From Sulfurimonas marina (lineage in GTDB: Bacteria > Campylobacterota > Campylobacteria > Campylobacterales > Sulfurimonadaceae), in NCBI RefSeq assembly GCF_014905095.1, contig NZ_CP041165.1, positions 1,364,001 to 1,428,000 of the forward strand: a DNA stretch of 64,000 nt, in the 5' to 3' direction. Of the stretch, positions 1,956 to 37,355 are shown in pieces. Made by a program: the position numbers and the translations under genes. Position 1 is the first letter of the stretch. Every line of letters begins with the position of its first letter. The notes beneath the pieces are model-generated. The model was not told the DNA's origin and did no database searches. It saw only the letters and a program-made list of their open reading frames with translations.

Positions 1956-3155
1956 TTACACCACTTCAACTGTTACTACATCGATACCGTTATATTTGTA
2001 TCCACCGTGGTTCCATTTGATATCTTTTGCAAATGGCTGTTCTTCACCTAAACGGTTGATAGCTTTTGCCATAAACGATAATTTACCGTATTTATTCGGT
2101 TTAAATGCATATCTGAATTCAGTATATGAGTAACGACCGTTTCCTTGTTTAAGCAATGCTTTCTCCCAAGTTTTACCTTCGTCAGTTGAGATCATAACGT
2201 CTCTAATACCTGTACCGTCGTCAAATGCAACACCACGAACAACTAAATGAGAGTTGTGATATACCTTCATTCCGTTTTCAGGATAACCAATTACAGATTT
2301 TACATTCATATGTGTAATAGGTTTTGTAGGCTTGAATTTGTTATCCGGCTCTTCACACTCACACTCATTATCAGGAATACGATAAGCAACATCCATAAAG
2401 AAAAGAGATTTATATTTATCTGTCACTGTAATGTTACTTAACATCTTAACCCAGCTATCAGAATAATATCCAGGCATTACAAGACGTAGCGGATAACCAT
2501 TTAAGTATGGTAAATCTTCACCGTTCATTTCATAAGCAAGGATAACATGGTCATCAAGTTCATGTGTCTCAATCTCACGAACAAAGTTTGGTGTTTCATA
2601 GTAAGCTGCATTATCTTTTCCGTTAAAGCCGATAAAGTGTGCTTCTTTTTTCATACCTGCACGATTAAGAACGTCACGAAGTCTTACACCTTTCCATTTA
2701 GCACATCCCATAGCACCGCTACCCCATTGGATACCACCTGCGATCGGATGGAATGCTGAACGTGAGTTACCACCACACTGAAGAACTGCTGTTACTTCAA
2801 CTTGTTCAAATTCAGTTTTTAACTCTTTTAGTGAGATCTCTAACTCTTTCTCAACTAAACCGTTAACTTTAATAGTATAGTTGTCTGGATCGTTATGAAG
2901 TGGAATCTCCGGTAAGTGCCATCTTACGAAGAACTCATCATTTGGTGTTAATCCTTGAGTAAATACACTTCTTGGTGATTCTAAAAGTGGTGGTCTGTCA
3001 GAGTATGTAATAAGTGGTTTTTTTTCAGGAAAAGCCATTTTTGAGACTTTTCTACCATCGATTGGTTGTGTTGTTTCACCCGCAGATAAAGCAGTACTGC
3101 CAAGAACAGCTGCTGAAGCTACAAGAGAACTTTTTAGGAACTCTCTTCTTTGCAT
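1956..3155 (-). CDS. sorA: Sulfite:cytochrome c oxidoreductase, molybdopterin subunit (SorA-like)
   Basis: This 399-residue protein starts with a twin-arginine signal (RREFLK, residues 3-8, then a hydrophobic run ending near ALSA), so the folded cofactor-loaded enzyme is exported by Tat. The sulfite-oxidase fold follows, with the molybdenum-ligand Cys127 in LQCGGNSR and a Mo-co dimerisation domain in the last 130 residues. It oxidises sulfite to sulfate in the periplasm, with the downstream SorB-like cytochrome as electron acceptor. Sox-cycle SoxC is the closest alternative, but there is no SoxD-type dihaem partner and the neighbour is a monohaem SorB. An extended -10 promoter lies about 40 bases upstream. 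Identity is secure at family level. Confidence 0.88.
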   Translation of the reverse strand: MQRREFLKSSLVASAAVLGSTALSAGETTQPIDGRKVSKMAFPEKKPLITYSDRPPLLESPRSVFTQGLTPNDEFFVRWHLPEIPLHNDPDNYTIKVNGLVEKELEISLKELKTEFEQVEVTAVLQCGGNSRSAFHPIAGGIQWGSGAMGCAKWKGVRLRDVLNRAGMKKEAHFIGFNGKDNAAYYETPNFVREIETHELDDHVILAYEMNGEDLPYLNGYPLRLVMPGYYSDSWVKMLSNITVTDKYKSLFFMDVAYRIPDNECECEEPDNKFKPTKPITHMNVKSVIGYPENGMKVYHNSHLVVRGVAFDDGTGIRDVMISTDEGKTWEKALLKQGNGRYSYTEFRYAFKPNKYGKLSFMAKAINRLGEEQPFAKDIKWNHGGYKYNGIDVVTVEVV

Positions 3156-3194
3156 AAATTTTCCTTAATATAATTATAATAATTGTCCGGCAAA

Positions 3195-3203
3195 ATTATA
3201 GCA
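3195..3203 (-). promoter_or_regulatory. Extended -10 promoter element upstream of sorA-sorB
   Basis: Read on the minus strand the site is TGCTATAAT, an extended -10 box with its end 40 bases from the sorA ATG. A second TATAAT lies closer, at 3173-3178. A good ribosome-binding site (AAGGAAA) sits before the ATG. No clear -35 is expected in this phylum. Confidence 0.5.
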
Positions 3204-3235
3204 CTTTTCTATTAAAGAGTTTTGAATTTTTGCGC

Positions 3236-3727
3236 TTAAATATACTCTTGTGATAGTTTTTTGATTTTCCTATAAATCTTTTCAAAATCCGTAGAGTATA
3301 CACGGTTGTTTGCGATCGAAGTTATAAAGTTAGTATCTCGCTCCCAACGTGGCACTAAATGTAAGTGTATATGTTCTGCTATCCCTGCTCCGCCAGCTTT
3401 CCCTAAATTCATACCAAGGTTGACACCATGAGCACCGAGACCCTCTTTTAAGAGTCTTACACCTTTTTGTGCTAAAGCTGTTATATGGAGCCAAACATCA
3501 CTCTCTAAATCTTCTAACTTATCTGTATGATAATGAGGAATAATCATGAAATGTCCAGGTGTATAAGGATACCTATTCATAACTATAAAACAATGTTCGT
3601 CACGATATACTACATGGAGTTTTTCATCATCTTGGGAATTTGTGCTTATATGGCAAAACACACACCCTTCGATCTTTTCGTTTGTTACGTATTCATCACG
3701 CCAAGGTGCATATAAGATATCTTCCAC
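3236..3727 (-). CDS. HIT family nucleotide hydrolase/transferase
   Basis: This 163-residue protein has the histidine triad signature HIHLHLVPRW with His119, His121 and His123, the catalytic element of nucleotidyl hydrolases and transferases. The preceding AGGAGIAE and N-terminal CVFC (Cys22, Cys25, a possible zinc pair with nearby His) place it in the Ap4A-phosphorylase-like or HINT-like branch common in this phylum. It probably acts in the cytoplasm on dinucleoside polyphosphates or AMP-conjugates. It is separated from the TRAP genes downstream by 38 bases and from sorA upstream by 80, so it may be monocistronic or a promoter-distal member of the sor transcript. Substrate cannot be read from sequence. 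Confidence 0.8.
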   Translation of the reverse strand: MEDILYAPWRDEYVTNEKIEGCVFCHISTNSQDDEKLHVVYRDEHCFIVMNRYPYTPGHFMIIPHYHTDKLEDLESDVWLHITALAQKGVRLLKEGLGAHGVNLGMNLGKAGGAGIAEHIHLHLVPRWERDTNFITSIANNRVYSTDFEKIYRKIKKLSQEYI

Positions 3728-3765
3728 ACTTTCCCTTTTTTACAAAGATTATATCGTGATCTTTT

Positions 3766-5061
3766 TTAAATAAAAGCAAACACCAAATCAGGGAAAAGGA
3801 TCACGAGAGCCAAAGCTACCAACTGTAGTAAAATAAAAGGTATAACCCCTTTATAGATTTGCATAGTTGTAATACTATCTTTTGCCGCCCCTTTTAAAAA
3901 GAAAAGACTTAGTCCAAACGGCGGCGTTAAAAATGAAGCCTGCAGATTGAGTGCTATTAAAATTGCAAACCAGATAGGATCAATTCCAAAAGCATGCATA
4001 ACAGGGACAAGTATAGGGACAATAATAAAGCTGATCTCTATAAAGTCTATAAAAAATCCAAGTATAAAAATACTCAGCATTGCAATCGCTATAAAGACCC
4101 AAACATCTCCAATATCCTCAGAGAAAAATTCCAATATCAGATCAGTTCCGCCAAGTTCGTTAAAAACCAATGAAAAAGCGGTTGCACCTATTAAAATCAT
4201 AAAAATCATACCACTTAACTTCATCGTCTCATAAAGTGCATACTTGACCATTTTTTTACTAAGTGTTTTATTTATCGTAGCTAAAATAAAACCACCCAAT
4301 ACTCCAAAAGCTGCCGATTCAGTAGGTGATGCGATTCCGGCAAAAATACTTCCAAGAACAGCTACCATTAAAAGAAGCGGCGGGATAATGGCATATAAAA
4401 GTTCAAAAACAGAAACTTTCTCTTCACTCACAAGGGCCGGAGCATCTTCTTTGTTAATAAATGCGCGAATTAAAATATAAACTATATAGAGCCCAACTAG
4501 TACAAGTCCCGGTAATACGGCACCCATAAATAACTCACCCACACTCACACTCATCACATCACCAAGGACAATCAAGATGATAGATGGAGGGATAATCTGA
4601 CCGAGTGTCCCACTTGAAGCGATCGTACCGCCAGCAAGAGATTTATTGTACCCTGCTTTTAGCATTAATGGTAATGCGATCACACTCATCATAACAACAC
4701 TTGCAGAGACGATCCCCGTTGATGCCGCAAGAATAGCTCCAACCAGTACGACACTCACTCCAAGTCCACCGCGTACACCCTTAAAAAGTGAAGACATTGA
4801 GAGTAAAAGCTTTTCAGCCATACCTGATTTCTCTAAAATAAGTCCCATCATTATAAATAGCGGGACAGCCATCAAAGTAGAGTTACTCATAATCCCATAA
4901 ATTCTAAACGGCAAGATGTTAAAGACTTCAAATCCTACATCAGGTGTAAAAAAAGCAAAGATCATGGCAACTGCACCAAATGCAAATGCTACCGGGATTC
5001 CAAAAAGTAAAAGAGCAAGAGCTACTAAAAACATTATCAGTGCTATCATAAACTTCTCCAC
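3766..5061 (-). CDS. dctM: TRAP transporter large permease DctM
   Basis: The 431-residue product is almost entirely hydrophobic, with about twelve helices and the DctM signature stretches, for example GAILAASTGIVSASVVMM and IASSGTLGQIIPPSIILIV. It is the channel-forming subunit of a tripartite ATP-independent periplasmic transporter for organic acids or related solutes, driven by a sodium or proton gradient. It overlaps the dctQ gene by 16 bases, so the two are translated together. No periplasmic binding protein (dctP) is found next to it, which leaves the substrate open. Length agrees with the family (about 425-435). Confidence 0.9.
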   Translation of the reverse strand: MEKFMIALIMFLVALALLLFGIPVAFAFGAVAMIFAFFTPDVGFEVFNILPFRIYGIMSNSTLMAVPLFIMMGLILEKSGMAEKLLLSMSSLFKGVRGGLGVSVVLVGAILAASTGIVSASVVMMSVIALPLMLKAGYNKSLAGGTIASSGTLGQIIPPSIILIVLGDVMSVSVGELFMGAVLPGLVLVGLYIVYILIRAFINKEDAPALVSEEKVSVFELLYAIIPPLLLMVAVLGSIFAGIASPTESAAFGVLGGFILATINKTLSKKMVKYALYETMKLSGMIFMILIGATAFSLVFNELGGTDLILEFFSEDIGDVWVFIAIAMLSIFILGFFIDFIEISFIIVPILVPVMHAFGIDPIWFAILIALNLQASFLTPPFGLSLFFLKGAAKDSITTMQIYKGVIPFILLQLVALALVILFPDLVFAFI

Positions 5062-23362: not shown

Positions 23363-23389
23363 AGTAGTAAGGTTTTATAACCTTCTACT
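23363..23389 (-). terminator. Terminator of the metal-uptake operon
   Basis: Two arms, AGTAGTAAGGTT and AACCTTCTACT, form a stem with one bulged base and a 4-base loop. On the minus strand the stem is followed by CTTTTTATT, a good U-tract, just after the stop of the permease gene. It may also stop plus-strand transcription from dapA. Confidence 0.65.
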
Positions 23390-24143
23390 CCTCTACTTTC
23401 TCTTTTTTATCATTTAACATTACAAATCCCAACGAAACAATTACCATAACAAATATAATGCTGTATCCCGTAGGAAGATCAAAACTGTATGAACCTATCA
23501 TGGCAGCGATTATTGCAACTGTTCCCATAAACCAGGCTACAACCAATGGGGAAAATCTGTTTTGAACTAAACCTATATATGCCGGAGCAATTAAAAGAGC
23601 AAATACAACGAGAACTCCTGCAACCTGTACTGATGATGTAACAGTCAAAGCAAGCATTACAAAAAATGTCATCTCTTTTAAAAACCCTTTCATTTTAGGA
23701 TAAAGTATAAACATAACTATAGAGATTGGTATATAGAGTGCTAAACTTTTGTAAAAGTCCTCTTGTGATGTAAAGAGTATATCTGCAGCGCTGAGTTTGG
23801 AGAAGATCTCCATCCCCTCAGCACTTTTTGAAAGAATAATCATAATAGAAGAGATACCAAGGGCATATAAAAGCCCTATAAAGGCTTCTACATTCTTGAT
23901 ATTTTTACTTGCCCAAGCAATGATAAGTGCTGCAAAGATAGCGAAACTTAACACTAGTAGTGTTTGGTATGCACCATCTAAAAATGCAACACTCAACGCC
24001 ATCCCGATAGCTGCAATCTGTCCGATCGCAAGGTCTGTAAAGATTACACCTCTGCGAATGATCTCTACACCGAAAACAGCATGGATGTAAACAAGTAAAA
24101 AAGCCAGCATAAATGCCGGCCAAAAAATCTCTATTATCTGCAT
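23385..24143 (-). CDS. znuB: Zinc/manganese-type ABC transporter permease (ZnuB-like)
   Basis: A 252-residue protein with about eight membrane helices of the ABC-3 family that imports Zn or Mn. The first residues, QIIEIFWPAFMLAFLLVYIH, and the motif GVVFAL-like VAGVLVVFALLIAPAYIG fit ZnuB/MntB/TroC-type permeases. It overlaps the binding-protein gene by ten bases, so both are co-translated. No ATPase (ZnuC) gene lies next to it, so the importer depends on an ATPase encoded elsewhere. The zinc call is inferred from the cluster. Confidence 0.82.
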   Translation of the reverse strand: MQIIEIFWPAFMLAFLLVYIHAVFGVEIIRRGVIFTDLAIGQIAAIGMALSVAFLDGAYQTLLVLSFAIFAALIIAWASKNIKNVEAFIGLLYALGISSIMIILSKSAEGMEIFSKLSAADILFTSQEDFYKSLALYIPISIVMFILYPKMKGFLKEMTFFVMLALTVTSSVQVAGVLVVFALLIAPAYIGLVQNRFSPLVVAWFMGTVAIIAAMIGSYSFDLPTGYSIIFVMVIVSLGFVMLNDKKEKVEE

Positions 24144-25015
24144 AATCTCATTTCAATCGTATTGTAAAAACTCTTAAGTGTATCAGTCCCTTCAACACTA
24201 CCAACATCGTGTGGGATAATTACAACTTCCGCACCCGTTTTTTCCGCTATAAATTTAGCAGTTTTCTTCTCATGATATACATCCTGAAGAATCGTTTTTA
24301 CCTCTTTCTCTTTTACAAGATTAATAGTTTTTAGTGTATTTTTTGAACTTGGAGTGATCCCAGGAAGAGGTTCAATATTTCCATAAAGATCAAACTTATA
24401 TCTTTTTAGAAAGTATGTAAAAAGGTCGTGATACTGAACAACTTTCGTCCCTTCACACTTTGCCATTTTTGCATCGTACTCTTTTAGATATTGATTCCAG
24501 TCCGCTAAAAATGCTGCAAGATTTTGCTCATAAACAACACTGTTTGAGCTGTCTAATAATGCAAGTTTTCTACTAATAAGTTTTGCAATGATCCCTACAT
24601 TATGCGGGTCAAGTGCAAAGTGAGGATTACCATCTGGGTGAACATCTCCTAAAGCACGAGAAACTACTGCAGGTTTGTTCAGCATTGTAATAACACCACT
24701 TACATCTAAAAACCCTTTTGCACCGACATTAAGCTCTCTGTTTTGTGCACCGCGAAGAAGTGGCGGCAACCAACCTATCTCTAGCTGCCCGCCGTTTACA
24801 ACAAGCAGATCAGCTTTGCGAAGTTTTGTAATAAGAGATGGTTTTGGTACTACAAAGTGTGGATCAAACGTAGGATCAGCCAATACATCTACTTTAACAT
24901 TCTCACCACCTACCTCTTTTACGATCTCACCTAAGTATGCATATGTTGTTACAACATTTACCTTTGCAAAGAGTGATACGCTTGCCAATAAAGTTAATAA
25001 TAATATTTTTCTCAT
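24134..25015 (-). CDS. znuA: Metal ABC transporter substrate-binding protein (ZnuA-like)
   Basis: A 293-residue periplasmic protein with a Sec signal (residues 1-17, LLASVSLFA) and the cluster A-I (ZnuA/TroA) fold. Likely metal ligands are the histidines in TFDPHFVV (about 53), GNPHFALDPHN (about 131) and VQYHDLFTY (about 198) plus the acidic residue in IPHDVG. It captures Zn (or Mn) and hands it to the permease that overlaps it downstream. The gene starts 9 bases after the outer-membrane protein gene. A His-rich loop typical of many ZnuA proteins is absent here, but the outer-membrane protein upstream carries one. Confidence 0.85.
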   Translation of the reverse strand: MRKILLLTLLASVSLFAKVNVVTTYAYLGEIVKEVGGENVKVDVLADPTFDPHFVVPKPSLITKLRKADLLVVNGGQLEIGWLPPLLRGAQNRELNVGAKGFLDVSGVITMLNKPAVVSRALGDVHPDGNPHFALDPHNVGIIAKLISRKLALLDSSNSVVYEQNLAAFLADWNQYLKEYDAKMAKCEGTKVVQYHDLFTYFLKRYKFDLYGNIEPLPGITPSSKNTLKTINLVKEKEVKTILQDVYHEKKTAKFIAEKTGAEVVIIPHDVGSVEGTDTLKSFYNTIEMRLCR

Positions 25016-25024
25016 CCTCTGCTC

Positions 25025-26404
25025 CTAGAAGTTGTGTGCGCCGTGTGCGCCGATCGCTAAATTAAGTTGAAGAATTACAGTGTCAATATGTTGTCTTTCA
25101 CCATCTTCATTAAACATTGCATTGTTACGGTTGTATTGTAGTCTTATTCTTGCAAATTCGCTTGTAGTGTAGTCAATCATTGCAGAGTATCTGTCAAAAT
25201 TTTGAGGCAATGTAGTCTGTCCATTAATCTCATTTTTATTAATTGCATCATATCTAAAACCTGCACGCCAGTTTTGGTTGTAAGCATAAACCAGCTGTGC
25301 ATAGTAACCACTTTGTTTTTTTACTGTCGGTGTAACATCAAAGGTAGTATAATCCGTTATCGTACCGTTACCATCCGTAGGATATTCATACTTACTTCCA
25401 TCCATATCACGATAAAGATACTCCCCTTGAAATGTAAGGTAAGAGTATGAATCAAAATAGTGTTTTACAGTAAGATCTACACCATATAGATAACTATCAG
25501 CTACAAATGCATGTGGCCCCTCTTCATCGTCTAAATGGTTTATATGACTGTCTCCGTATGCGATTGAACCGCCGTAAAGAAATGTTGTATTTCCGAGGTC
25601 AAATGAACTCTTGATATACCCTACTAAAAGGTTGGGTTGTGAAGGAGATGCTACTGCCACTTCTTCAGCACCTTCAGGTATAATGGCATCTGTACCGTAC
25701 ATTGAAGGGTTCTTCCCTTGAAGAGCTTCAACTCCAACCATTACATAAGTATCTGTCGGCAATGTCCACTGCACTTGCGCACCGATATCATTGATCCCGT
25801 GTTCTCCAAGAAAAGCCATATATACTAAAGGCATATCTGAAAAATCCTGAACGTGCTGGTGTTGTTCGTTAATACGTCCAAAGTCTGAACGGAATTTACC
25901 GATTTTTGCTTTAAGTCCGTACCCTAAAGATGTAGTCTCGCCGTAAGCTTCTTCGATCTCAAAACCATCTTCTGTTAAGTGGAAAACAGCCATAGTTCTA
26001 AAGTACGGGTCTACTACACTCTCCATTGCTACTTCTGCATAGTTAAGATTAAAACCGTTTGATGCATTATACGGGGCATGTGAGTGTTCACCGTGAGAAT
26101 GGCTTCCCATAATACCGTGTGCAACTCCCGGGATCTCTAAGTGTGTTAACTCTTCATCTTTCATTGAGCGGTTTACATAACTTGTATCTACAATCAATGA
26201 TAGATCGGGCATATAACTGCTTTGAGAAAAGCTGTTTAAACTTCCCATAAGAGAGTTTCTAATTTTCGTATCTTCTTGTTGCTGCTGTTGTTGTTGAATA
26301 ATTGCTTCTAAAGAATCTATTCTAAGTTTAAGATCCTCGATTTCACTATTTGCAAATAATGACAATGATGCAAATAGCGATAAATATGTTAATTTTTTGT
26401 ACAT
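25025..26404 (-). CDS. Outer-membrane beta-barrel protein with coiled coil and His-rich loop
   Basis: A 459-residue exported protein: signal peptide (1-17), a helical coiled-coil segment with a run of seven Gln (about residues 36-42), then a beta-rich body with alternating aromatic strands and a C-terminal end ...LNLAIGAHGAHNF that fits a porin-like barrel. A His-rich stretch at about residues 98-110 (GSHSHGEHSHAP) suggests binding of Zn or a similar metal. It is the second gene of a metal-uptake cluster, followed by ZnuA-like and ZnuB-like. It lacks a TonB plug, so passive or metal-selective uptake is the likely role, by inference. Its ribosome-binding site lies inside a hairpin (26412-26462). 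Confidence 0.72.
   Translation of the reverse strand: MYKKLTYLSLFASLSLFANSEIEDLKLRIDSLEAIIQQQQQQQEDTKIRNSLMGSLNSFSQSSYMPDLSLIVDTSYVNRSMKDEELTHLEIPGVAHGIMGSHSHGEHSHAPYNASNGFNLNYAEVAMESVVDPYFRTMAVFHLTEDGFEIEEAYGETTSLGYGLKAKIGKFRSDFGRINEQHQHVQDFSDMPLVYMAFLGEHGINDIGAQVQWTLPTDTYVMVGVEALQGKNPSMYGTDAIIPEGAEEVAVASPSQPNLLVGYIKSSFDLGNTTFLYGGSIAYGDSHINHLDDEEGPHAFVADSYLYGVDLTVKHYFDSYSYLTFQGEYLYRDMDGSKYEYPTDGNGTITDYTTFDVTPTVKKQSGYYAQLVYAYNQNWRAGFRYDAINKNEINGQTTLPQNFDRYSAMIDYTTSEFARIRLQYNRNNAMFNEDGERQHIDTVILQLNLAIGAHGAHNF
26276..26296 (-). repeat. CAA/CAG trinucleotide run encoding seven glutamines
   Basis: Seven consecutive Gln codons, a mix of CAA and CAG, follow the signal peptide region of the outer-membrane protein. 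Slippage would change length by whole residues and not the reading frame. Confidence 0.6.
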
Positions 26405-26408
26405 AAAT

Positions 26409-26462
26409 ATCCTCTTAATATTTTTTTCGATAATAGTTTGTTTATATGTTGAATATTAAGAG
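26409..26462 (-). promoter_or_regulatory. Hairpin masking the ribosome-binding site of the outer-membrane protein gene
   Basis: On the minus strand CTCTTAATATT (26462-26452) and AATATTAAGAG (26422-26412) are perfectly complementary over 11 bp with a 29-base loop. The first arm contains the stop codon of the small His-rich gene, and the second arm contains the AAGAGG ribosome-binding site of the next gene. Ribosomes finishing the small gene would open the stem, giving translational coupling. A terminator function is less likely because there is no U-tract. Confidence 0.5.
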
Positions 26463-26728
26463 ATTTTTGGAGGTGCGCGAGGATTTACATTTGAGATAAG
26501 TTGATTACTATGTAAAGAAAAAAGCGGTGTTACGATACCTTCATGAAAAATATCCAGTTCAGATAAGTACACACTTTTTTCAGGTGTATCGGCATCAAAA
26601 ATTGTAGATTGTACAGTACACACTTGACAGTCATTGTGTTGCTGAGCGTCATGATGATGGTGAAAAGAACCCATCATTGTTGCTATGAAAAGTACAATTC
26701 CAACATATTTTGATAAAAAATTTCGCAT
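26456..26728 (-). CDS. Small His-rich membrane protein of DUF2946-like type
   Basis: This 90-residue protein begins with a hydrophobic helix or signal (residues 6-22), followed at once by HHHHDAQQHNDCQVC (residues 23-37), a His/Cys-rich metal-binding patch. It ends in NPRAPPKIS. The pattern of short signal, HHDH-like patch, CxxC and a RAPP tail is that of small periplasmic proteins found beside metal-uptake or metal-efflux genes (DUF2946 type). It opens the zinc cluster and would be the translational lead for the outer-membrane protein gene. Family membership is by pattern and should be tested. Confidence 0.55.
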   Translation of the reverse strand: MRNFLSKYVGIVLFIATMMGSFHHHHDAQQHNDCQVCTVQSTIFDADTPEKSVYLSELDIFHEGIVTPLFSLHSNQLISNVNPRAPPKIS

Positions 26729-29797: not shown

Positions 29798-29814
29798 CAA
29801 ATAAACATTATTTG
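29798..29814 (-). terminator. Weak hairpin at the end of the TonB gene
   Basis: CAAATAA and TTATTTG form a perfect 7-bp stem with a 3-base loop, overlapping the TonB stop codon at 29808. It is AT-rich and has only a short U-tract on either side, so the role in termination is uncertain. Confidence 0.3.
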
Positions 29815-30545
29815 AGCGTATATGCAAGTTTAATATTGAACTCTTTAGGAAAGTCTATCAACGACTTTTCTACATTGAGTGGAAAACTCTCTTCGATCGC
29901 TTGAATAGTTGCCTTTTTAAAAATACTTTTTCCTGCAATCACTTTAATTGCAGAAACACCGCCGTCTGCCAAGACAATAAACTTCACATCTACATCACCT
30001 TCAACACCGCGTCTTCTTGCTGAGAGAGGATAACGTTTATTTTCATTTATTTTTTGAACCAGCTGTAGTGTAAAAGAGTCCAATTCTTTTTGTTTTGCTG
30101 CAAGCATCTCTTGAAGCTTTTGTTCCCGAAGCTCTTCTTCCTCTTGTGCTTTTATATCTTCAACCTGCTGTTCTACAACCTCTTCTTCAACTTCGGCAAC
30201 TATCTCTTCAATAATTACCTCTTTTTCAATAATTTTCTCTTTTACAACCTCTTTTTGTACAATCTTTTCAACTACCGCTTTTTGCTCTACTTTTGGTTTT
30301 AGCTTTTCCTTTTTTACTACTTTTTTTTGAACTTCTTTTTTAGGCTTTTTTTCAACCTTTTTTAGCTGTTTTTGCTCGGTACACGGATGTTCTCTCATAA
30401 GGGAGACAACAACTATTTTTGTATTATCAATGCTCTCTTTTGATTCTGAGGCTTCATACTGTTTTTCTGCCATATATATTATAGAAGCAACCAAAGATGT
30501 ATATATAACGATAGTCATTGCAAACGAGGAGATATATCTATTCAT
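29808..30545 (-). CDS. tonB: TonB energy-transducer protein
   Basis: A 245-residue protein with an N-terminal membrane anchor (about residues 8-26), a long Lys/Glu/Val-rich linker (residues 55-150, KKVEKKPKKEVQKK and following) and a TonB C-terminal domain (residues 165-245; RYPLSARRRGVEGDVDVKF and GGVSAIKVIAGKS). It carries proton-motive energy to outer-membrane receptors with ExbB/ExbD, which are not in this window. It overlaps the RND gene by 8 bases and has a strong GGAGG ribosome-binding site. The linker has no Pro-rich repeat of the E. coli kind; charged residues replace it. The TonB-dependent receptor two genes upstream is its likely partner. Confidence 0.85.
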   Translation of the reverse strand: MNRYISSFAMTIVIYTSLVASIIYMAEKQYEASESKESIDNTKIVVVSLMREHPCTEQKQLKKVEKKPKKEVQKKVVKKEKLKPKVEQKAVVEKIVQKEVVKEKIIEKEVIIEEIVAEVEEEVVEQQVEDIKAQEEEELREQKLQEMLAAKQKELDSFTLQLVQKINENKRYPLSARRRGVEGDVDVKFIVLADGGVSAIKVIAGKSIFKKATIQAIEESFPLNVEKSLIDFPKEFNIKLAYTLK

Positions 30546-33500
30546 ACTTTCCTCCGCTTACATAATTAAAAAGAACCGGCAGATAAAAAAGATTGAGTAT
30601 AGTCCCCCATAATAAACCAAATCCCAAACTTACAGCTAAAGGCTGAAATGCTACCGCTTGTGCCGTTGCAAAAAACATAAGTGATGACAATCCCACCAGT
30701 GTTGTCACCGATGTAAGTACGATCGGACGGAACCTTGTTGCTGCGAGTGTAAAGATATCCTCTTTTTTATGAGCTTTAATCAAAGTAGCCATCATAATGA
30801 TCCCGTCATTTACAATAACACCTGAGAGTCCCAATGCTCCGATCAATGACGGCAGTGAAATATTGAGCCCCATAATGTAATGCCCCGCATATACACCCAG
30901 GAATGAAAACGGTATAACAGAGAGTACGATCAACGTATCTCTAAAAGAGTTAAAAAGATACAGAATCGAGATAAATATCAATACGACGGCAAAAAGTGAG
31001 GCAAAGACTAGTTCCGTTTTAAGGGTTGCCTGTTGTTCCTGTTCCCCTTTAAAACGCAACGATACACCATCTGTATTTTGAAGTTTCTGCAATGTCGGTG
31101 CTATTTTTTCCAATACTTCCGAAGATGTTACTATAGAAGGGTTCACATTGGCAAATACATAGAAGTTTGTCTCTCCATCCTCTTTTACAAGCTGTTCTAA
31201 CGATTCCACTTTTTCAAAACTACACAGATCGCTGAGCTTGATATATCTATCTTGTACATATATTTCAAGGTCTTTGAACTTTTGCAGATCGTTTTTGTAG
31301 TTAATAGACTTGATCTTTAAATCCAGCAGCTCTTTACCGTCAAAAATTGTCCCTATCTTTTTTGAAAGGTAGAGATTCGCTATATAATCTCCAAGATATT
31401 TTTTCGTAATTCCAAGTTCACGTGCATAGCTGTTAAGGTGGAGTTTAATCTCATCTATACCAACTTTAACATTATCACCGTAATACTTAATCCCATCTAT
31501 TTTTGAGAGGGCATCTTCAAGTTCTCTGACTGCTGCGAGTGCTTTTTGATGATCGTCACTTACAACACCTATACGGATATCTGCTTTAACATGATCCATC
31601 TGCTTTTCAATAACCGTTAAACTGCTTAGATGGTATTTCTTCTCTAGCCCCTCTGCCACAAGCCATTGACGCAGTTCACGTGAGATCTCCTGTGATGATT
31701 TATCCCTAATTCTCTCACTACTGTCGTAGTAAAAACTCAAATAAGGGGTAATATACTTATCCATAAAGTTTAAAGGTTTGAGTTTATAAAGCTCCAACGT
31801 CAGATATCCAACATAAGGGTACATCTCACGATCACCGGTTGCACTTCTTCTATACCCTGCCGTTGAACTGACATGCTTTACAAAAAATCTCTCTTTTTGG
31901 GTTAGTATATCTCTTTCTAACTCTTGGACTATTGCCAAGGATTCTTCAAGTGTCGTAGTAGGTTGCGCTTTAAATGTAATGTTTACCAAAGAGGTATCAA
32001 AAGGCTGAAACATCTGAAACCTTGAGTTTTTCACCCCTGCAAAAATCAAAAGCGGTACGACAATAAGAAATACCGTTATAAATGTTTTTTGATAGACAAG
32101 AAGAAACTCCAAACATTTTTGATAAAAGTGTTGTACCCTCTCCCACGATAAAGTTTTAACATCTTTTGAAAGTGTATGAGAAGCGTGGATTGGAAGAAAC
32201 ACAAAAGACTCGATCAAAGAGGCAATCACAAGGGCTGAGAATGCGATCGGAATCAGCTGAATAATCTCCCCTATTCTCCCGCTGAGCATCAGCAGTGGAA
32301 TAAAAGAGAACAACGTCGTAAGCGATGCAATAGTTACCGGCTTTGCCATCTCTTTTGTTCCAAGAAGTGCCGCTTCTTTTACACTATACCCTTTCTCTAT
32401 ATACTGCTGGATATTTTCACTCACCACGATCGCATCATCAACGATGATACCGATTGCTATTAAAACCCCGATAAGCGAATTGACATTAATGCTGTAGGGT
32501 GTAAAGTAAAAATAAATTGCTCCGATCACAAATGAAGTAGGTATCCCCAAAGCGATAATAAAAGCGATACGGATATTTATAAGTACTGAGATCATTAACA
32601 TTATCAACAAAATTCCAAAAAGGATGTTAGAGATAACAATGTTCAGCCTGTCTTTTATAACAACAGAACGATCCATTCTGATCTCTATCTCAGCCCCTTT
32701 TAAATGGGTAGTGTCGATCAGCTTTTTGATCTCGTTAGAGATTGTCAGTGCATCGCCGATAGGATTTTGAGATACTGCTAAAGAGATAGAGTTTTGTGCA
32801 TCCATACTTGCAAGTGTTGAGGCATCTTCATACTTTTTTGAGATTGTGGCGATATCGCTGATATTTACCTGTTTATCACCGATACTAATAATCGTTTTTT
32901 CAAGATCATGCGCTACTTGTTCCTGATTTTTTATTGAAAGGTAGAACTGCTCTTTTGCATTATCGATCTTACCGAGCGGAAAGATATATGAGAGTTCCGA
33001 AAAAGCTTTTACAACATCCTCAAGTCCAAGACCGTATGCACCGAGTTTGTTTTCATCTATAAGTATCTCATAATAAAGATCTGAATCTCCAAATATCCTC
33101 ACCTCGGAGATATTTTGAATATTTAAGAGCTTTATTTTAAGATTTTTAGCAAGTGCTTTGAGCTCATCACGGGAGAGTTCAGAAGATAAGATGGCAATAT
33201 GCATCAAACTCTTTGAATGGATCATACTTCGAACAGTTGGCAGTTCCATATCACTTGGAAGTGTACTCTCAATTGTTGCGATCGTATCTTCTACATCTTT
33301 TTGCACATCCTGTTTGTGAATGCCCTCTTCTAGTTCTAACGTGATTACAAACTGTCCCGGGGAGATGATAGAGGTGATGTTGCTCACACCTACGACATTA
33401 TTGATCTCCGCTTCAATTTCCGAGACTGCCATGTTGTTAAGTGCATCAACGGAAGCCCCTTGATAAACTCCGTGGATCGTTAATGTCTCAGGTTCAATAG

Positions 33501-33621
33501 TTGGTGCTATCTCTTTTGGAATTTTCGTATAGGCAAAGATACCCAAAGCAAAGATTAGAAAAAATAAAGTGTAATTCATTTTGTAGTTATCTAGAAAAAA
33601 CTTTAAAAATCTTTCAAACAT
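30538..33621 (-). CDS. RND-superfamily efflux permease (AcrB-type)
   Basis: This 1027-residue protein has the RND layout: twelve helices, two large periplasmic loops, and the charged relay residues in helix 4 (GIIVDDAIVVSEN, about residue 400). The matching helix 10 reads GVIVNDGIIMMATL, with Asn-Asp in place of the classical Lys. It is in the hydrophobe/amphiphile efflux group rather than the heavy-metal group by its motif pattern. No membrane-fusion protein and no outer-membrane channel gene is adjacent, unusual for an RND pump. Upstream is a polyferredoxin gene (13 bases) and downstream TonB (8-base overlap). Confidence 0.88.
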   Translation of the reverse strand: MFERFLKFFLDNYKMNYTLFFLIFALGIFAYTKIPKEIAPTIEPETLTIHGVYQGASVDALNNMAVSEIEAEINNVVGVSNITSIISPGQFVITLELEEGIHKQDVQKDVEDTIATIESTLPSDMELPTVRSMIHSKSLMHIAILSSELSRDELKALAKNLKIKLLNIQNISEVRIFGDSDLYYEILIDENKLGAYGLGLEDVVKAFSELSYIFPLGKIDNAKEQFYLSIKNQEQVAHDLEKTIISIGDKQVNISDIATISKKYEDASTLASMDAQNSISLAVSQNPIGDALTISNEIKKLIDTTHLKGAEIEIRMDRSVVIKDRLNIVISNILFGILLIMLMISVLINIRIAFIIALGIPTSFVIGAIYFYFTPYSINVNSLIGVLIAIGIIVDDAIVVSENIQQYIEKGYSVKEAALLGTKEMAKPVTIASLTTLFSFIPLLMLSGRIGEIIQLIPIAFSALVIASLIESFVFLPIHASHTLSKDVKTLSWERVQHFYQKCLEFLLVYQKTFITVFLIVVPLLIFAGVKNSRFQMFQPFDTSLVNITFKAQPTTTLEESLAIVQELERDILTQKERFFVKHVSSTAGYRRSATGDREMYPYVGYLTLELYKLKPLNFMDKYITPYLSFYYDSSERIRDKSSQEISRELRQWLVAEGLEKKYHLSSLTVIEKQMDHVKADIRIGVVSDDHQKALAAVRELEDALSKIDGIKYYGDNVKVGIDEIKLHLNSYARELGITKKYLGDYIANLYLSKKIGTIFDGKELLDLKIKSINYKNDLQKFKDLEIYVQDRYIKLSDLCSFEKVESLEQLVKEDGETNFYVFANVNPSIVTSSEVLEKIAPTLQKLQNTDGVSLRFKGEQEQQATLKTELVFASLFAVVLIFISILYLFNSFRDTLIVLSVIPFSFLGVYAGHYIMGLNISLPSLIGALGLSGVIVNDGIIMMATLIKAHKKEDIFTLAATRFRPIVLTSVTTLVGLSSLMFFATAQAVAFQPLAVSLGFGLLWGTILNLFYLPVLFNYVSGGKYE

Positions 33622-33634
33622 TTGCTATGTGGCC

Positions 33635-35062
33635 CTACCCTTTACTGTTTACTGTTTTGTGTTGCATTGCATGATGAGAGTGTTTAGCAACTCCGTAAGT
33701 TTTGAACACATATCCTCTGTAAATATTTACAGAAAGAAAAAATATGATCAATGATGCTGCAAAAGGGAATGCTACCATCTTTTTCATTTTAGTTGCATCA
33801 ATTTTGGCCAATCTTTTATATAAAATTACTAATGCCCAAACAATCGCAATCCACTTCAGTGCTCCAAAAATATGTAGCCAACTGTCACCTCGGCTTGCTA
33901 ATGGTGCAACATCTAAAGTTATTCCTAACCCCTGAGCAAATCCTTCGGCAATTTTTGCAGAACCGCGAGTGAAAAAACTCTCTAGGGTATGTGCAATTGA
34001 ACCGATAATAAACAGCGGAGCATAAGAGTATCCGAGATCGTAAAATGTTGTTTTAAAATCTTTTTGTAACACTTTTGAGGCAATGAACATCCCAATAAGT
34101 GCTGCTGCTACTGAAAATACAACGGCATAGACAAATGAGAATAACCCAACTGCATCCATAGAACCGAAATTGATATATTGTTCAAAAAAGTGTGCCGTTT
34201 TACTCCAGATCATATCATCTGCTGCATTTGATCTGTTGATCCCATGATGAAAAGACATCGTTATAGGAATAGCTGCCAAAATCAATAGGTATGCCCAGAT
34301 CTCAGCCGGCATACTCTGGAACTTGCCAAAAAGTGAAAATGAAGGTTTTTTTACTTTAAAAGCCACTGCTTCACATGCACTTGTACAATCCATACAAAGT
34401 GTACAATCGGTCATAGAGTTACGTTTGTCAAAAGTAAAAGGTTTTAGATTCTGGTCACATACACTTGCACAATCAAAAGTTTTACAAGAACTACACTCAT
34501 CTTTATATGTTCCGATCCAAGTAAACGACATCTTCGAATACGCACGGCTTAGTACTCCAATAGGACAAACAGATTTACAATAACTCATATCTCTATAAAC
34601 AAAATAGAGTCCAAAAGCTAACAGAGTCATCACAGTAAACATTACAGCTGTACCAAGCGGACTGCGAAATAATCCCGGATATGCATAGTACACACCCCAC
34701 CAACCAATCATTAAAATAGCGATGCCTATATATCTATTTTGCATCCATTTTGGCATCTTCTTTTGTAAACCGTACTTTGTTATATACTTACCTATAAAAC
34801 CGTGTGGGCAAACACCGCAAAATACACGACCTAAAGTAGGAAGCGTTACAACCATAAATAAAGCCCAAAACACTCCCCAAAATACTGCTGATGTAAAAAT
34901 ATTTTCTTTTCCAGGATGGGCATATCCATAGTAGATCGCATAAAAAAACACCACTGCGATCAATACTCTTAAAGCCATTAAAAAGCTCTGGTTTTTAAAA
35001 AGAAATGCTGTAATTTTATATTTCAACAAATCATTCTTATCTCTTTGTACATATTCAACCAT
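33635..35062 (-). CDS. Membrane polyferredoxin of NapH/NosR type
   Basis: This 475-residue membrane protein has six or more helices and many cysteines. Two CxxC/CP motifs occur (Cys82-Cys85-Pro and Cys162-Cys166-Pro) and two ferredoxin-like clusters follow: Cys190, 193, 198 and 202, then Cys220, 223, 226 and 230. The arrangement resembles NapH/NosR-type electron-transfer proteins that pass quinol electrons across the membrane. The C-terminal 220 residues are hydrophobic and not obviously a known domain. Lying between a TonB receptor gene and an RND gene, it may reduce a metal or a metal complex during uptake; that is inference. Confidence 0.78.
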   Translation of the reverse strand: MVEYVQRDKNDLLKYKITAFLFKNQSFLMALRVLIAVVFFYAIYYGYAHPGKENIFTSAVFWGVFWALFMVVTLPTLGRVFCGVCPHGFIGKYITKYGLQKKMPKWMQNRYIGIAILMIGWWGVYYAYPGLFRSPLGTAVMFTVMTLLAFGLYFVYRDMSYCKSVCPIGVLSRAYSKMSFTWIGTYKDECSSCKTFDCASVCDQNLKPFTFDKRNSMTDCTLCMDCTSACEAVAFKVKKPSFSLFGKFQSMPAEIWAYLLILAAIPITMSFHHGINRSNAADDMIWSKTAHFFEQYINFGSMDAVGLFSFVYAVVFSVAAALIGMFIASKVLQKDFKTTFYDLGYSYAPLFIIGSIAHTLESFFTRGSAKIAEGFAQGLGITLDVAPLASRGDSWLHIFGALKWIAIVWALVILYKRLAKIDATKMKKMVAFPFAASLIIFFLSVNIYRGYVFKTYGVAKHSHHAMQHKTVNSKG

Positions 35063-35082
35063 CTTCTTGTTCTCCTGATTTA

Positions 35083-37278
35083 TTAAAACTTAGCAGATAG
35101 ACCTGCAGTTAAAGTTCTTCCCTGATTTACAGTGATTGAAAGATCCTCTTTATCAAATACACCATCTTCATTACGATCACTGCTTGATCTTGCAGAGTTA
35201 TAGTATTGTTTATCAAAAAAGTTATCTACTCTAAAGAAAAAGCTTGTATCAAACATTGCTATTTTTTTATTGTATGTCGCCATTAAATTCATTGTTTGGT
35301 AGCCATCGATTTTTAATTGGTTTAAATCGTCTGCGTAATAACTAGATTTTCCGTTTACTTCAACCATATACGACAACTCTTTTGTTGCTTGATAATCTAT
35401 TCTAAGGTTAACAGTATGTTTTGATGTTCTTGGGATAGTATTACCTGTTACATCATAAGTATAAACTGGAGCAGGAGTGGTCCATGTACCAGCACCCATT
35501 GTAATTCCAAAGTTTTTATAATCTGTATATTTAGCATCTAAATATGTATATGCAAGGTTAAACTTTAATGATTTTGCAAGGTCTCCTATTGCTGAAAGTT
35601 CTAAACCTCTGTGTCTTGCTCCACCGATATTATCCCACATATCAGTTGTATCAGTGTCACCGTAATTCCCTGAAGTTTTCATAATAAAGTCTTTTCTATC
35701 TAACTGAAAAACAGATGCTTCATACTTTACATTATTCAGTAATATCCTAGTACCGATTTCATAGTTAAAAGATTCTTCAGGTTTTAAATCCGGATTATTT
35801 AGTGTCGATCCCCATGTACTTACATCACCTGCAAAAAGTTGAGAAATTGTCGGTGCACGGAACCCTGTCGAATAGTTCACAAAAAGTGTCGTTTTGGGAT
35901 CTACTTGATAGTTCATTCCTAGTCTATAAGAGTATACATTGAAATTTTTAGTAAGATTATTAGACATTGAATCCGTATAATCAAGTTTAATATGATCGTA
36001 ACGTAGATTGGCAGTAGCGCTTAAATCTTTCGTTAAAGCATACTTGTACTCACCATAAAGGGCATATACATTTTCATCAGTTGTATTGTCACTTTTAAAA
36101 TCACCTGGTTGAAAATAGTCTGGGATAGTAATTTTTGTACCATTTTCATCTCTCGTATTAAAAGCTTGTGCAGCTCTATAAGTCACTCTATTTTTGTATT
36201 CATTGGCACGAAGGTCCAAACCTAGTAATGCAGCTGAGTCTTTAAAAGAATCTCTATATTCACTTTTGATCCCTTTTTGAATCTGTTCATAATGGTTATC
36301 ATAAACATAATCTTCATCATCCAAAGTAGCATCATATGCACCTGTAGAATCTTTTGTTTGCGGTGATGAAATAAAATTTGTCGTATCTGTATAAACGTAT
36401 CCGTTTACTAAAAGGTTTGCTCCACCGTCAAAATCTTTTGAATATGTTAAGAATGTTTTTAAAAGTTCAACATCGTATTTACGTGTATAGTCTCTACTGT
36501 CCTGATCACCCGTGTAGATAGATTCCGGATTTGTCTGAGCTTCAGTTTCACCTCCAACAGTACCGTGGGAATCTTTATTTCTTTGTGAATACTCTACACC
36601 TAAAGTGATATCCGATGTATCATCAATATAATATTGCAATTTACCGTTTACATAATCCGCTTCATAATCTGAATCTTCATGGTAACCGTCAGCCTTTCTT
36701 TGGCTTGCCTGAATATGAAAACTCAAATTATCATTTGCATACCCTGTTCTTGCCACCATTTTTTGATAACCATAGCTTCCAACTTCAAAAGCACCGTAAT
36801 TATGATTGTATTTTGCCCCTTTTTTCGTAGTAATTATTACCGCACCTGAAAGTGCATCATCACCAAATAGATAAGAAGCACCACCCTTGATCACTTTAAT
36901 ACTTTCGATGTTATCAAGATCAATGTTCACTTTTCCAGTTCTTTCAAATACCGGTACACCGTCTATAACGACTGCTACTCCCGGTTTTTCTCCCATATAC
37001 ATTTGGTTTTCTAAACCTCTTATATGTATTTTTATTGAATCCCCTGTAGAAACTTCTGTAGTGATACCAGGTATTGTCTGTAATAATTGTTGTAAGTTTT
37101 CTGTATGAGATGTATCCACTACCTCGCCATTGATTGTAGCTGTTGAAGAAACCTCTGTCTTTTTTGTATCAAACTTATCATCAATTGTTGAAGACTCAAC
37201 TTTAATTGTCCCCAAATCAGTCGCTGATAAATTTATAGCTAAAGCACATATAGCAGATAATTGTATAAACTTTTTCAT
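35083..37278 (-). CDS. TonB-dependent outer-membrane receptor
   Basis: A 731-residue outer-membrane protein: Sec signal (1-19), plug domain (about residues 45-165; LQQLLQTIPGITTEVSTGD, VVIDGVPVFERTG and IKVIKGGASYLFGDDALSG), and a 22-strand barrel ending in GRTLTAGLSAKF with a terminal Phe. The C-terminus carries FDKQYYNSAR as in many siderophore and metal-chelate receptors. The ligand is not readable from sequence. Downstream in the same orientation come the polyferredoxin, RND and TonB genes, with 20- and 13-base gaps and an overlap, so this is a four-gene transcript. A tandem 9-bp repeat lies near its promoter. Confidence 0.88.
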   Translation of the reverse strand: MKKFIQLSAICALAINLSATDLGTIKVESSTIDDKFDTKKTEVSSTATINGEVVDTSHTENLQQLLQTIPGITTEVSTGDSIKIHIRGLENQMYMGEKPGVAVVIDGVPVFERTGKVNIDLDNIESIKVIKGGASYLFGDDALSGAVIITTKKGAKYNHNYGAFEVGSYGYQKMVARTGYANDNLSFHIQASQRKADGYHEDSDYEADYVNGKLQYYIDDTSDITLGVEYSQRNKDSHGTVGGETEAQTNPESIYTGDQDSRDYTRKYDVELLKTFLTYSKDFDGGANLLVNGYVYTDTTNFISSPQTKDSTGAYDATLDDEDYVYDNHYEQIQKGIKSEYRDSFKDSAALLGLDLRANEYKNRVTYRAAQAFNTRDENGTKITIPDYFQPGDFKSDNTTDENVYALYGEYKYALTKDLSATANLRYDHIKLDYTDSMSNNLTKNFNVYSYRLGMNYQVDPKTTLFVNYSTGFRAPTISQLFAGDVSTWGSTLNNPDLKPEESFNYEIGTRILLNNVKYEASVFQLDRKDFIMKTSGNYGDTDTTDMWDNIGGARHRGLELSAIGDLAKSLKFNLAYTYLDAKYTDYKNFGITMGAGTWTTPAPVYTYDVTGNTIPRTSKHTVNLRIDYQATKELSYMVEVNGKSSYYADDLNQLKIDGYQTMNLMATYNKKIAMFDTSFFFRVDNFFDKQYYNSARSSSDRNEDGVFDKEDLSITVNQGRTLTAGLSAKF

Positions 37279-37337
37279 ACCTAAATTTCCCTTTTAATTA
37301 AAAATTTTAAGAAATTTAACAAAAAAGTGTTACATTA

Positions 37338-37355
37338 GTATTAATTGTATTAATT
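37338..37355 (-). repeat. Tandem 9-bp repeat downstream of a TATAAT box
   Basis: On the minus strand AATTAATAC occurs twice head to tail, located about 16 bases downstream of a TATAAT (37377-37372). It falls at the expected start of the receptor transcript and could be an operator for a regulator such as Fur, but the AT-rich context permits chance occurrence. Confidence 0.3.

Follow-up and report, generated by a model that had tools for sequence, protein, structure and literature searches.

What cargo would call for an outer-membrane receptor, a membrane polyferredoxin, an RND permease and TonB to be encoded side by side? The question is raised by an operon of Sulfurimonas marina, whose genome consists of a single contig of 2.26 Mb and belongs to the genus Sulfurimonas. 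The operon lies in a stretch of 64,000 nucleotides (NZ_CP041165.1, positions 1,364,001 to 1,428,000), hereafter the window, to which coordinates refer unless another sequence is named. We assign a probability of about 0.68 to the reading that it is a copper-acquisition unit, induced when copper is scarce, that imports a copper complex, reduces the metal at the inner membrane and captures it. The genes are linked in Campylobacterota as components of a larger modular locus, and the promoter repeat that precedes them also stands before OprC-type receptor genes and roughly half of the NosL genes examined. An earlier note on this DNA had suggested an uptake-plus-reduction system; conserved linkage, siderophore-type receptors and polyferredoxins carrying either a NosL domain or a His-rich tail are consistent with that idea, which we retain as a prediction from sequence.

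A conserved linkage within a larger modular locus

An open reading frame scan places four minus-strand genes in one operon, in the order TonB-dependent receptor, polyferredoxin, RND permease and TonB. The first two junctions measure 20 and 13 bases, and the RND and TonB genes overlap by 8 bases. The four leftward genes, their coordinates and their junctions (20, 13, overlap) are as the earlier note had described them.

A polyferredoxin profile applied at E 1e-40 detects the family in 62 of 397 Campylobacterota genomes and 23 of 68 genera, with strong matches (E 1e-160 or better) in 22 of 60 Sulfurimonas genomes. We mapped 86 loci, of which 72 were counted after removal of 12 whose polyferredoxin score did not exceed 600 bits or was lacking, and of two duplicate contigs (L062, L117). 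Pfam and NCBIfam supplied the family names, mainly at one locus (L001), and the other loci were labelled via profiles from such seeds. The resulting run counts are lower bounds, as some contigs end within a run, and near-identical strains may remain among them. Same-strand runs contain the receptor at 65 of the 72 loci, TonB at 36, ExbB at 35, ExbD at 34 and a DsbD_2-type protein at 31; a second NapH-like polyferredoxin and a double-cubane protein (HGD-D) are each found at 30, and a BadF-type ATPase at 29. Conservation of the gene order in Campylobacterota had been named as a check in the earlier note. With all four window gene types in one same-strand run at 11/72 loci, and receptor and polyferredoxin combined at 65/72, the arrangement is more than a chance one.

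The window operon is a trimmed form of this modular locus. Fuller versions also encode ExbB/ExbD, a DsbD-like protein, the second polyferredoxin, and the double-cubane reductase and ATPase, and have NosL fused to the main polyferredoxin. In the closest relative (G047), whose polyferredoxin is 95% identical, ExbB-ExbD sits between receptor and polyferredoxin, and a plasmid record of Sulfurovum mangrovi ST1-3 holds a receptor, a DsbD-like protein, two polyferredoxins, a double-cubane protein, an ATPase and an RND permease. The double-cubane protein and ATPase (NF040772), which we take to be of the YjiM/YjiL type, have members in 30/72 loci of the fuller relatives, and none were found in the window or its genome; the L001 double-cubane protein scores 346.5 bits against the NF040772 cut-off of 350. 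ExbB/ExbD are absent from the window operon, and three ExbD/TolR-family genes are encoded elsewhere in the same genome. We take the locus to be a new form of TonB-dependent metal uptake. Open-licence PubMed Central papers, judged by titles and abstract openings, yielded no description of it, and none was found there that joins 'double-cubane' with 'TonB'.

A promoter repeat shared with OprC-type receptors

Receptor genes of the module are preceded by a direct repeat of the form TAAYA-n6-TAAYA, usually TTAACA-n5-TTAACA, mostly 50-80 bases ahead of the start. It occurs 5' of 51 of 60 module receptors, a set still holding one duplicate pair (L005, L062), compared with 9 of 281 control upstreams from the same loci (Fisher p 9e-42 with relatedness ignored, for a pattern picked after seeing ten of the same upstreams). 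Both receptor clades are preceded by it, including the second, which has 19-24% identity to the window receptor. The window copy, the putative operator TTAATACTAATGTAACA (37328..37344, minus strand), lies about 50 bases 5' of the receptor ATG and is the sole match in 64 kb, where 0.17 would be expected. A strict form of the repeat has 39 exact matches in ten Sulfurimonas genomes, versus 10 for the reversed pattern. When 20 strict sites were read, seven stood before a receptor of about 655 amino acids with an NRMDPP-type motif, two before a NosL-ABC operon, one before an operon of the same kind in which the first gene differs, and two near nos genes.

The same repeat is found 5' of 55 of 61 OprC-like receptor genes examined, comprising 28/30 within Sulfurimonas and 27/30 in other genera and families. 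For this comparison TIGR01778 at 1e-60 proved too strict (1/60), and the OprC-like protein of the window's own genome (G000, gene 283645-285612) served as query instead (51/60); upstreams were examined in 30 of the 51 Sulfurimonas genomes with an OprC-like gene and in 30 of 33 genomes outside the genus. This query carries CxxxM-HxM and resembles OprC, which places it in the OprC/NosA group, and TIGR01778 is its best NCBIfam match, under the cut-off (189.5 of 472 bits). OprC is the only PDB match of the OprC-like receptors at E 1e-5 (best 1.9e-26), and the CxxxM-HxM ligands are kept in 60/60 aligned Campylobacterota sequences. According to passages of PMC8610252, OprC binds copper via CxxxM-HxM, and its orthologue NosA is repressed by copper.

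Other receptor genes served as a further comparison. Among 74 receptor rows in ten genomes, 20 were assigned to the module or OprC by position, and 37 of the other 54 were examined together with the OprC-like L268, from script-picked starts. The repeat precedes 2/37, both in a module variant, and 0/35 of the remainder. One of the two receptors is 68% identical to the receptor of module locus L006, and the second is its neighbour. At their locus (G308:C4:59745-63345; L229, L239), two receptor genes in tandem carry the operator, and a gene that is NapH-like by its sequence comes next; this is a second variant of the module, perhaps lacking the main polyferredoxin.

NosL genes carry the repeat at 9 of 20 loci picked blind to it, and at 2 of 3 fetched for it, including one in the window's own genome. 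Consensus sites for Fur, NikR, Zur and PerR-like regulators are not enriched upstream of module receptors; the best Fur-type match averages 11.82 of 19 there and 11.85 in controls. Since the operator is common to OprC-type copper receptors and NosL genes, and sites for Fur, NikR and Zur are not enriched, copper is favoured over the other members of the earlier list of Fe, Cu, Mo or Co. Through the repeat before its first gene, the window operon appears to fit a putative copper regulon of Campylobacterota, as defined here.

On a narrower view, the unit could exist solely to supply nitrous oxide reductase with copper for its metal centres, a reading in keeping with the NosL fusion and with operator copies that lie close to nos genes in G005 and G378. 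The window's genome has no NosZ match, however, and NosZ is missing (E 1e-100) from 8/22 Sulfurimonas genomes with a strong polyferredoxin match. With NosZ in 14/22 genomes that have the polyferredoxin versus 16/38 without (Fisher p 0.18, counting G030 as polyferredoxin-less despite a fragment at a contig end), the link is weak, and we consider such a restricted role extremely improbable. Operator copies (L130:11122-11149, L130:13544-13560 and L133:2797-2813) precede a DUF302 gene near nos genes (G005, G378) and, in G005, a gene of 452 amino acids, whose G378 counterpart matches the OprD porin family.

Several other loci bear on the operator. An OmpR-type response regulator and a histidine kinase are encoded upstream of the receptor at L084:12652-14149 (Pfam on L084), and the same pair occurs in L089, L091, L095 and L098, directly or with two genes between; these are f7 loci, taken as Arcobacteraceae. 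We regard the pair as the operon's candidate regulator. The genome of the window has two more operator-like sites (G000:C1:210156-210172 and 2051874-2051890; L118, L122), which have identical 17-mers in G047 and no obvious target gene in the right orientation. In G047 an operator (L123:2964-2980) lies 156 bases before a gene for a 445-amino-acid protein (3136-4473) with a weak cytochrome c domain match, followed by a 397-amino-acid protein without a Pfam match; the two may belong to a respiratory complex that is regulated by copper supply. In G392 an operator (L137:3405-3421) is located immediately 5' of a TonB gene (3445-4101), beside an ammonium transporter gene.

The receptor

The receptor (35083..37278, minus strand) consists of 731 amino acids. 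It comprises a plug and a barrel (Plug 8.4e-18, TonB_dep_Rec_b-barrel 1.6e-53 in Pfam) and shares its operon with TonB, the composition of a TonB-dependent transporter. Family and PDB matches describe it as siderophore/PqqU-like and not OprC-type. OprC/NosA is also a TonB-dependent receptor and has the promoter repeat in common with it in the same genomes; the window receptor differs in its own accompanying polyferredoxin, TonB and RND permease, and in the absence of the copper ligands. That it is itself OprC-like was considered and ruled out: its sole Cys, residue 11, falls within the signal peptide, there is neither HxM nor CxxxM-HxM, and TIGR01778 (TonB-copper) is not among the 19 NCBIfam families matched at E 0.01.

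Receptors beside the polyferredoxin fall into two clades, with about 40% or more and 19-24% identity to the window receptor, respectively. Both find their best PDB match in PqqU/YncD (1.2e-53 and 1.6e-50), followed by siderophore receptors. A constant reductase combined with exchangeable receptors would fit a system that takes metal from various ligands. The PqqU likeness can also be read to mean that the cargo is an organic redox cofactor or a different metal, with the reductases acting on the imported molecule itself. Relatives encode benzoyl-CoA-reductase-like double-cubane enzymes, whose substrates are organic or small inorganic molecules, and these would suit such a cargo. The PqqU model NF041535, however, gives the window receptor only 139 bits against a cut-off of 1200, and the operator and NosL links point to copper, so that a different cargo appears quite improbable.

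The polyferredoxin

The membrane polyferredoxin (33635..35062, minus strand) consists of 475 amino acids and is FtrD/NapH-like (Fer4_5, 4e-10). All 12 Cys lie in four motifs, namely C82xxC85P, C162xxxC166P, CxxCxxxxCxxxC (190-202) and CxxCxxCxxxC (220-230); residues 162-230, with the CxxxCP pair and the two 4Fe-4S motifs, correspond to 34373..34579 (minus strand). The two 4Fe-4S-type clusters previously proposed for this protein thus correspond to two classical motifs, to which two further Cys pairs are added. All 12 Cys are conserved to at least 95%, as are M269, H273 and H358 of the membrane half. Hydropathy, read by eye, suggests about nine membrane segments, with the ferredoxin motifs cytoplasmic and the C-terminus periplasmic.

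The protein ends in a His-rich tail, VAKHSHHAMQHKTVNSKG (33638..33691, minus strand), and relatives carry a NosL domain at the same place. Among 74 polyferredoxins, 31 are short forms (<520 residues), of which 29 end in such a tail, and longer forms have NosL or another C-terminal domain there. The tail was found automatically in 27, where its His content is 16.1% compared with 2.3% over the whole protein. L045 and L090 also have His-rich tails, L087 has a longer linker end, and L098 stops ahead of the tail. Fusion to NosL (PF05573) is seen in 19/72 loci and to another C-terminal domain in 32/72.

With respect to known families, the earlier label 'NapH/NosR-like' is loosely right. The Fer4_5 core is common to NapH/NosR, and NosL is fused in relatives of the window protein; the window protein itself differs in lacking NosL, in having an extra C-terminal membrane half, and in scoring 32.5 bits on TIGR02163 (NapH/MauN), far under the cut-off of 213 and outside that family. 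CcoG/RdxA, likewise a membrane iron-sulfur protein, is described as a cupric reductase in passages of PMC8267372. The window form differs from it by its operon and its C-terminal His tail (NosL in relatives), and has no match to the CcoG family at E 0.01, NapH-type models alone being matched. Haloarchaea and Deinococcus have distant relatives that align over 87-91% of the length. A further one in Azospirillum (22% identity over 71% of the length) adjoins an FTR1 gene, and on this ground the polyferredoxin is also FtrD-like. FtrABCD similarly devotes a membrane polyferredoxin (FtrD) to a metal uptake operon; the window operon has a receptor and TonB instead, and Pfam finds no Ftr1 permease, P19 or cupredoxin in its four genes and the next two upstream.

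The FTR1 neighbour raises the question of iron: a ferric siderophore would enter through the receptor, the FtrD-like polyferredoxin would reduce periplasmic Fe(III), and the RND permease would recycle the siderophore in a manner resembling the pyoverdine pathway. In addition to the distant homologue in Azospirillum, the receptor matches the siderophore-receptor model TIGR01783 (1.1e-56, under the cut-off), and solved siderophore receptors come after PqqU among its matches. The upstream regions, however, show no enrichment of Fur-type boxes; the operator common to OprC-type copper receptors, the NosL fusion and the His-rich tail also speak against iron, and no FTR1 family appeared among the neighbours put to Pfam, though no search aimed at FTR1 was made. 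We regard iron uptake as unlikely.

The RND permease and TonB

The RND permease (30538..33621, minus strand; ACR_tran 1.9e-128) consists of 1027 amino acids and keeps the Asp pair of transmembrane segment 4. No adaptor gene is among the four, in agreement with the earlier description of an RND without a fusion protein, and none was recognised next to the RND gene in the 19 RND-bearing loci, two of which have an unlabelled neighbour not put to family search. Because it is present in a same-strand run in 19/72 loci, the permease is optional and not the core of the unit. TonB (29808..30545, minus strand) comprises 245 amino acids with a Lys/Glu-rich linker and a TonB_C domain (1.2e-10).

An RND permease beside redox and metal-binding proteins could instead be the working part of a copper export or detoxification system, expelling copper or a toxic complex, as RND pumps export Cu in other bacteria. 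Its optional presence and the lack of a recognised adaptor argue otherwise, as does its resemblance to drug exporters over CusA/CzcA (4.7e-115 versus 3.7e-74, both under cut-off). As the receptor and TonB point to import, we judge export very unlikely.

A proposed model for copper acquisition

In the mechanism that we infer for the preferred copper-acquisition reading, covering the copper-limitation signal, the reductase activity and the role of the RND permease, copper shortage would lead a regulator that binds the repeat to turn the operon on. The receptor, powered by its own TonB with ExbB/ExbD encoded elsewhere in the genome, would import a form of copper that is not taken up by OprC, probably a chelate or another small complex. 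The polyferredoxin would carry cytoplasmic electrons across the membrane to its periplasmic end and reduce Cu(II) to Cu(I); reduction would release the copper from its ligand, and the metal would be passed to the His-rich tail or, in other species, to the NosL domain. Where present, the RND permease most likely removes the emptied ligand from the periplasm. The pyoverdine system, with periplasmic reduction and recycling by FpvGHJK and PvdRT-OpmQ, would work alike, combining a receptor, periplasmic metal reduction and a pump for the empty ligand. Compared with it, the window operon has another type of reductase, an RND permease for the ABC (ATP-binding cassette) pump, no adaptor and, probably, copper for iron.

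A number of observations weigh against copper acquisition or against its regulatory basis. The window receptor lacks the CxxxM-HxM copper ligands of OprC, and its nearest solved relative is an importer of pyrroloquinoline quinone (PQQ). The repeat is missing before 9/60 module receptors, 6/61 OprC-like genes (2/30, 3/30 and L268 in G392; one at a contig end) and 11/20 unselected NosL loci, and 8 of the 20 strict sites read have no copper link (three inside open reading frames, five elsewhere). A regulator search by homology to the Arcobacteraceae response regulator returned many paralogues and no clear single Sulfurimonas counterpart. An AlphaFold2 model of the polyferredoxin, built with eight sequences, is unusable (mean predicted local distance difference test, pLDDT, 40.5). 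Finally, copper can be reduced without a very low potential, so Cu(II) reduction alone does not account for the double-cubane enzymes found in relatives.

The double-cubane trio of relatives points to a reductant more powerful than Cu(II) would call for, and copper bound to sulfide or thiols might be the reason. In fuller versions of the locus, low-potential electrons would come from the double-cubane reductase together with its ATPase and the NapH-like protein, and the DsbD-like protein would maintain metal-binding thiols in reduced form. Electrons may then run from the ATP-activated double-cubane reductase through two membrane polyferredoxins to the periplasmic NosL domain. We tentatively suggest, as a possible but doubtful extension, that the full module is a copper scavenger that uses both TonB energy and ATP, freeing copper from the sulfide, thiol and chelate complexes of sulfidic waters. 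If true, this would provide a physiological role for a double-cubane reductase in metal uptake.

Genomic setting and a separate locus

The next two genes upstream of the operon are, by Pfam, a carbonic anhydrase gene and a DTW gene. The former, of the alpha type and on the same strand, is 154 bases away from the receptor gene; a convergent gene lies at the downstream end of the operon. As a terminator scan listed no terminator-like site between the carbonic anhydrase and receptor genes, read-through from the former is possible.

Further along the window, a gene for a 90-amino-acid peptide (26456-26728, minus strand) encodes HHHH, CxxC and a C-terminal NPRAPPKIS, and is weakly DUF2946-like (under cut-off). 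The peptide resembles the CruR-type RAPP translation-arrest leaders that sense metal (RAPP peptides and CruR are treated in passages of PMC12992588). It is encoded upstream of a 459-amino-acid protein without a Pfam match (25025-26404) and of ZnuA/ABC-3 genes (24134-25015 and 23385-24143), and perhaps controls zinc uptake.

Possible implications for copper supply in Campylobacterota

To our knowledge, copper acquisition by Gram-negative bacteria is poorly known, above all in sulfidic habitats, where copper is nearly insoluble. The abstract of the OprC paper (PMC8610252) likewise calls ionic copper uptake poorly known. The operator offers a list of candidate copper-controlled genes, and the fuller versions of the locus offer a physiological setting for double-cubane reductases. 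If the copper reading is true, the operon would represent a second copper route in addition to OprC, one of chelate type that has an electron supply of its own, in 62/397 of the Campylobacterota genomes sampled, bacteria in which copper is required for nitrous oxide reductase and cbb3 respiration.

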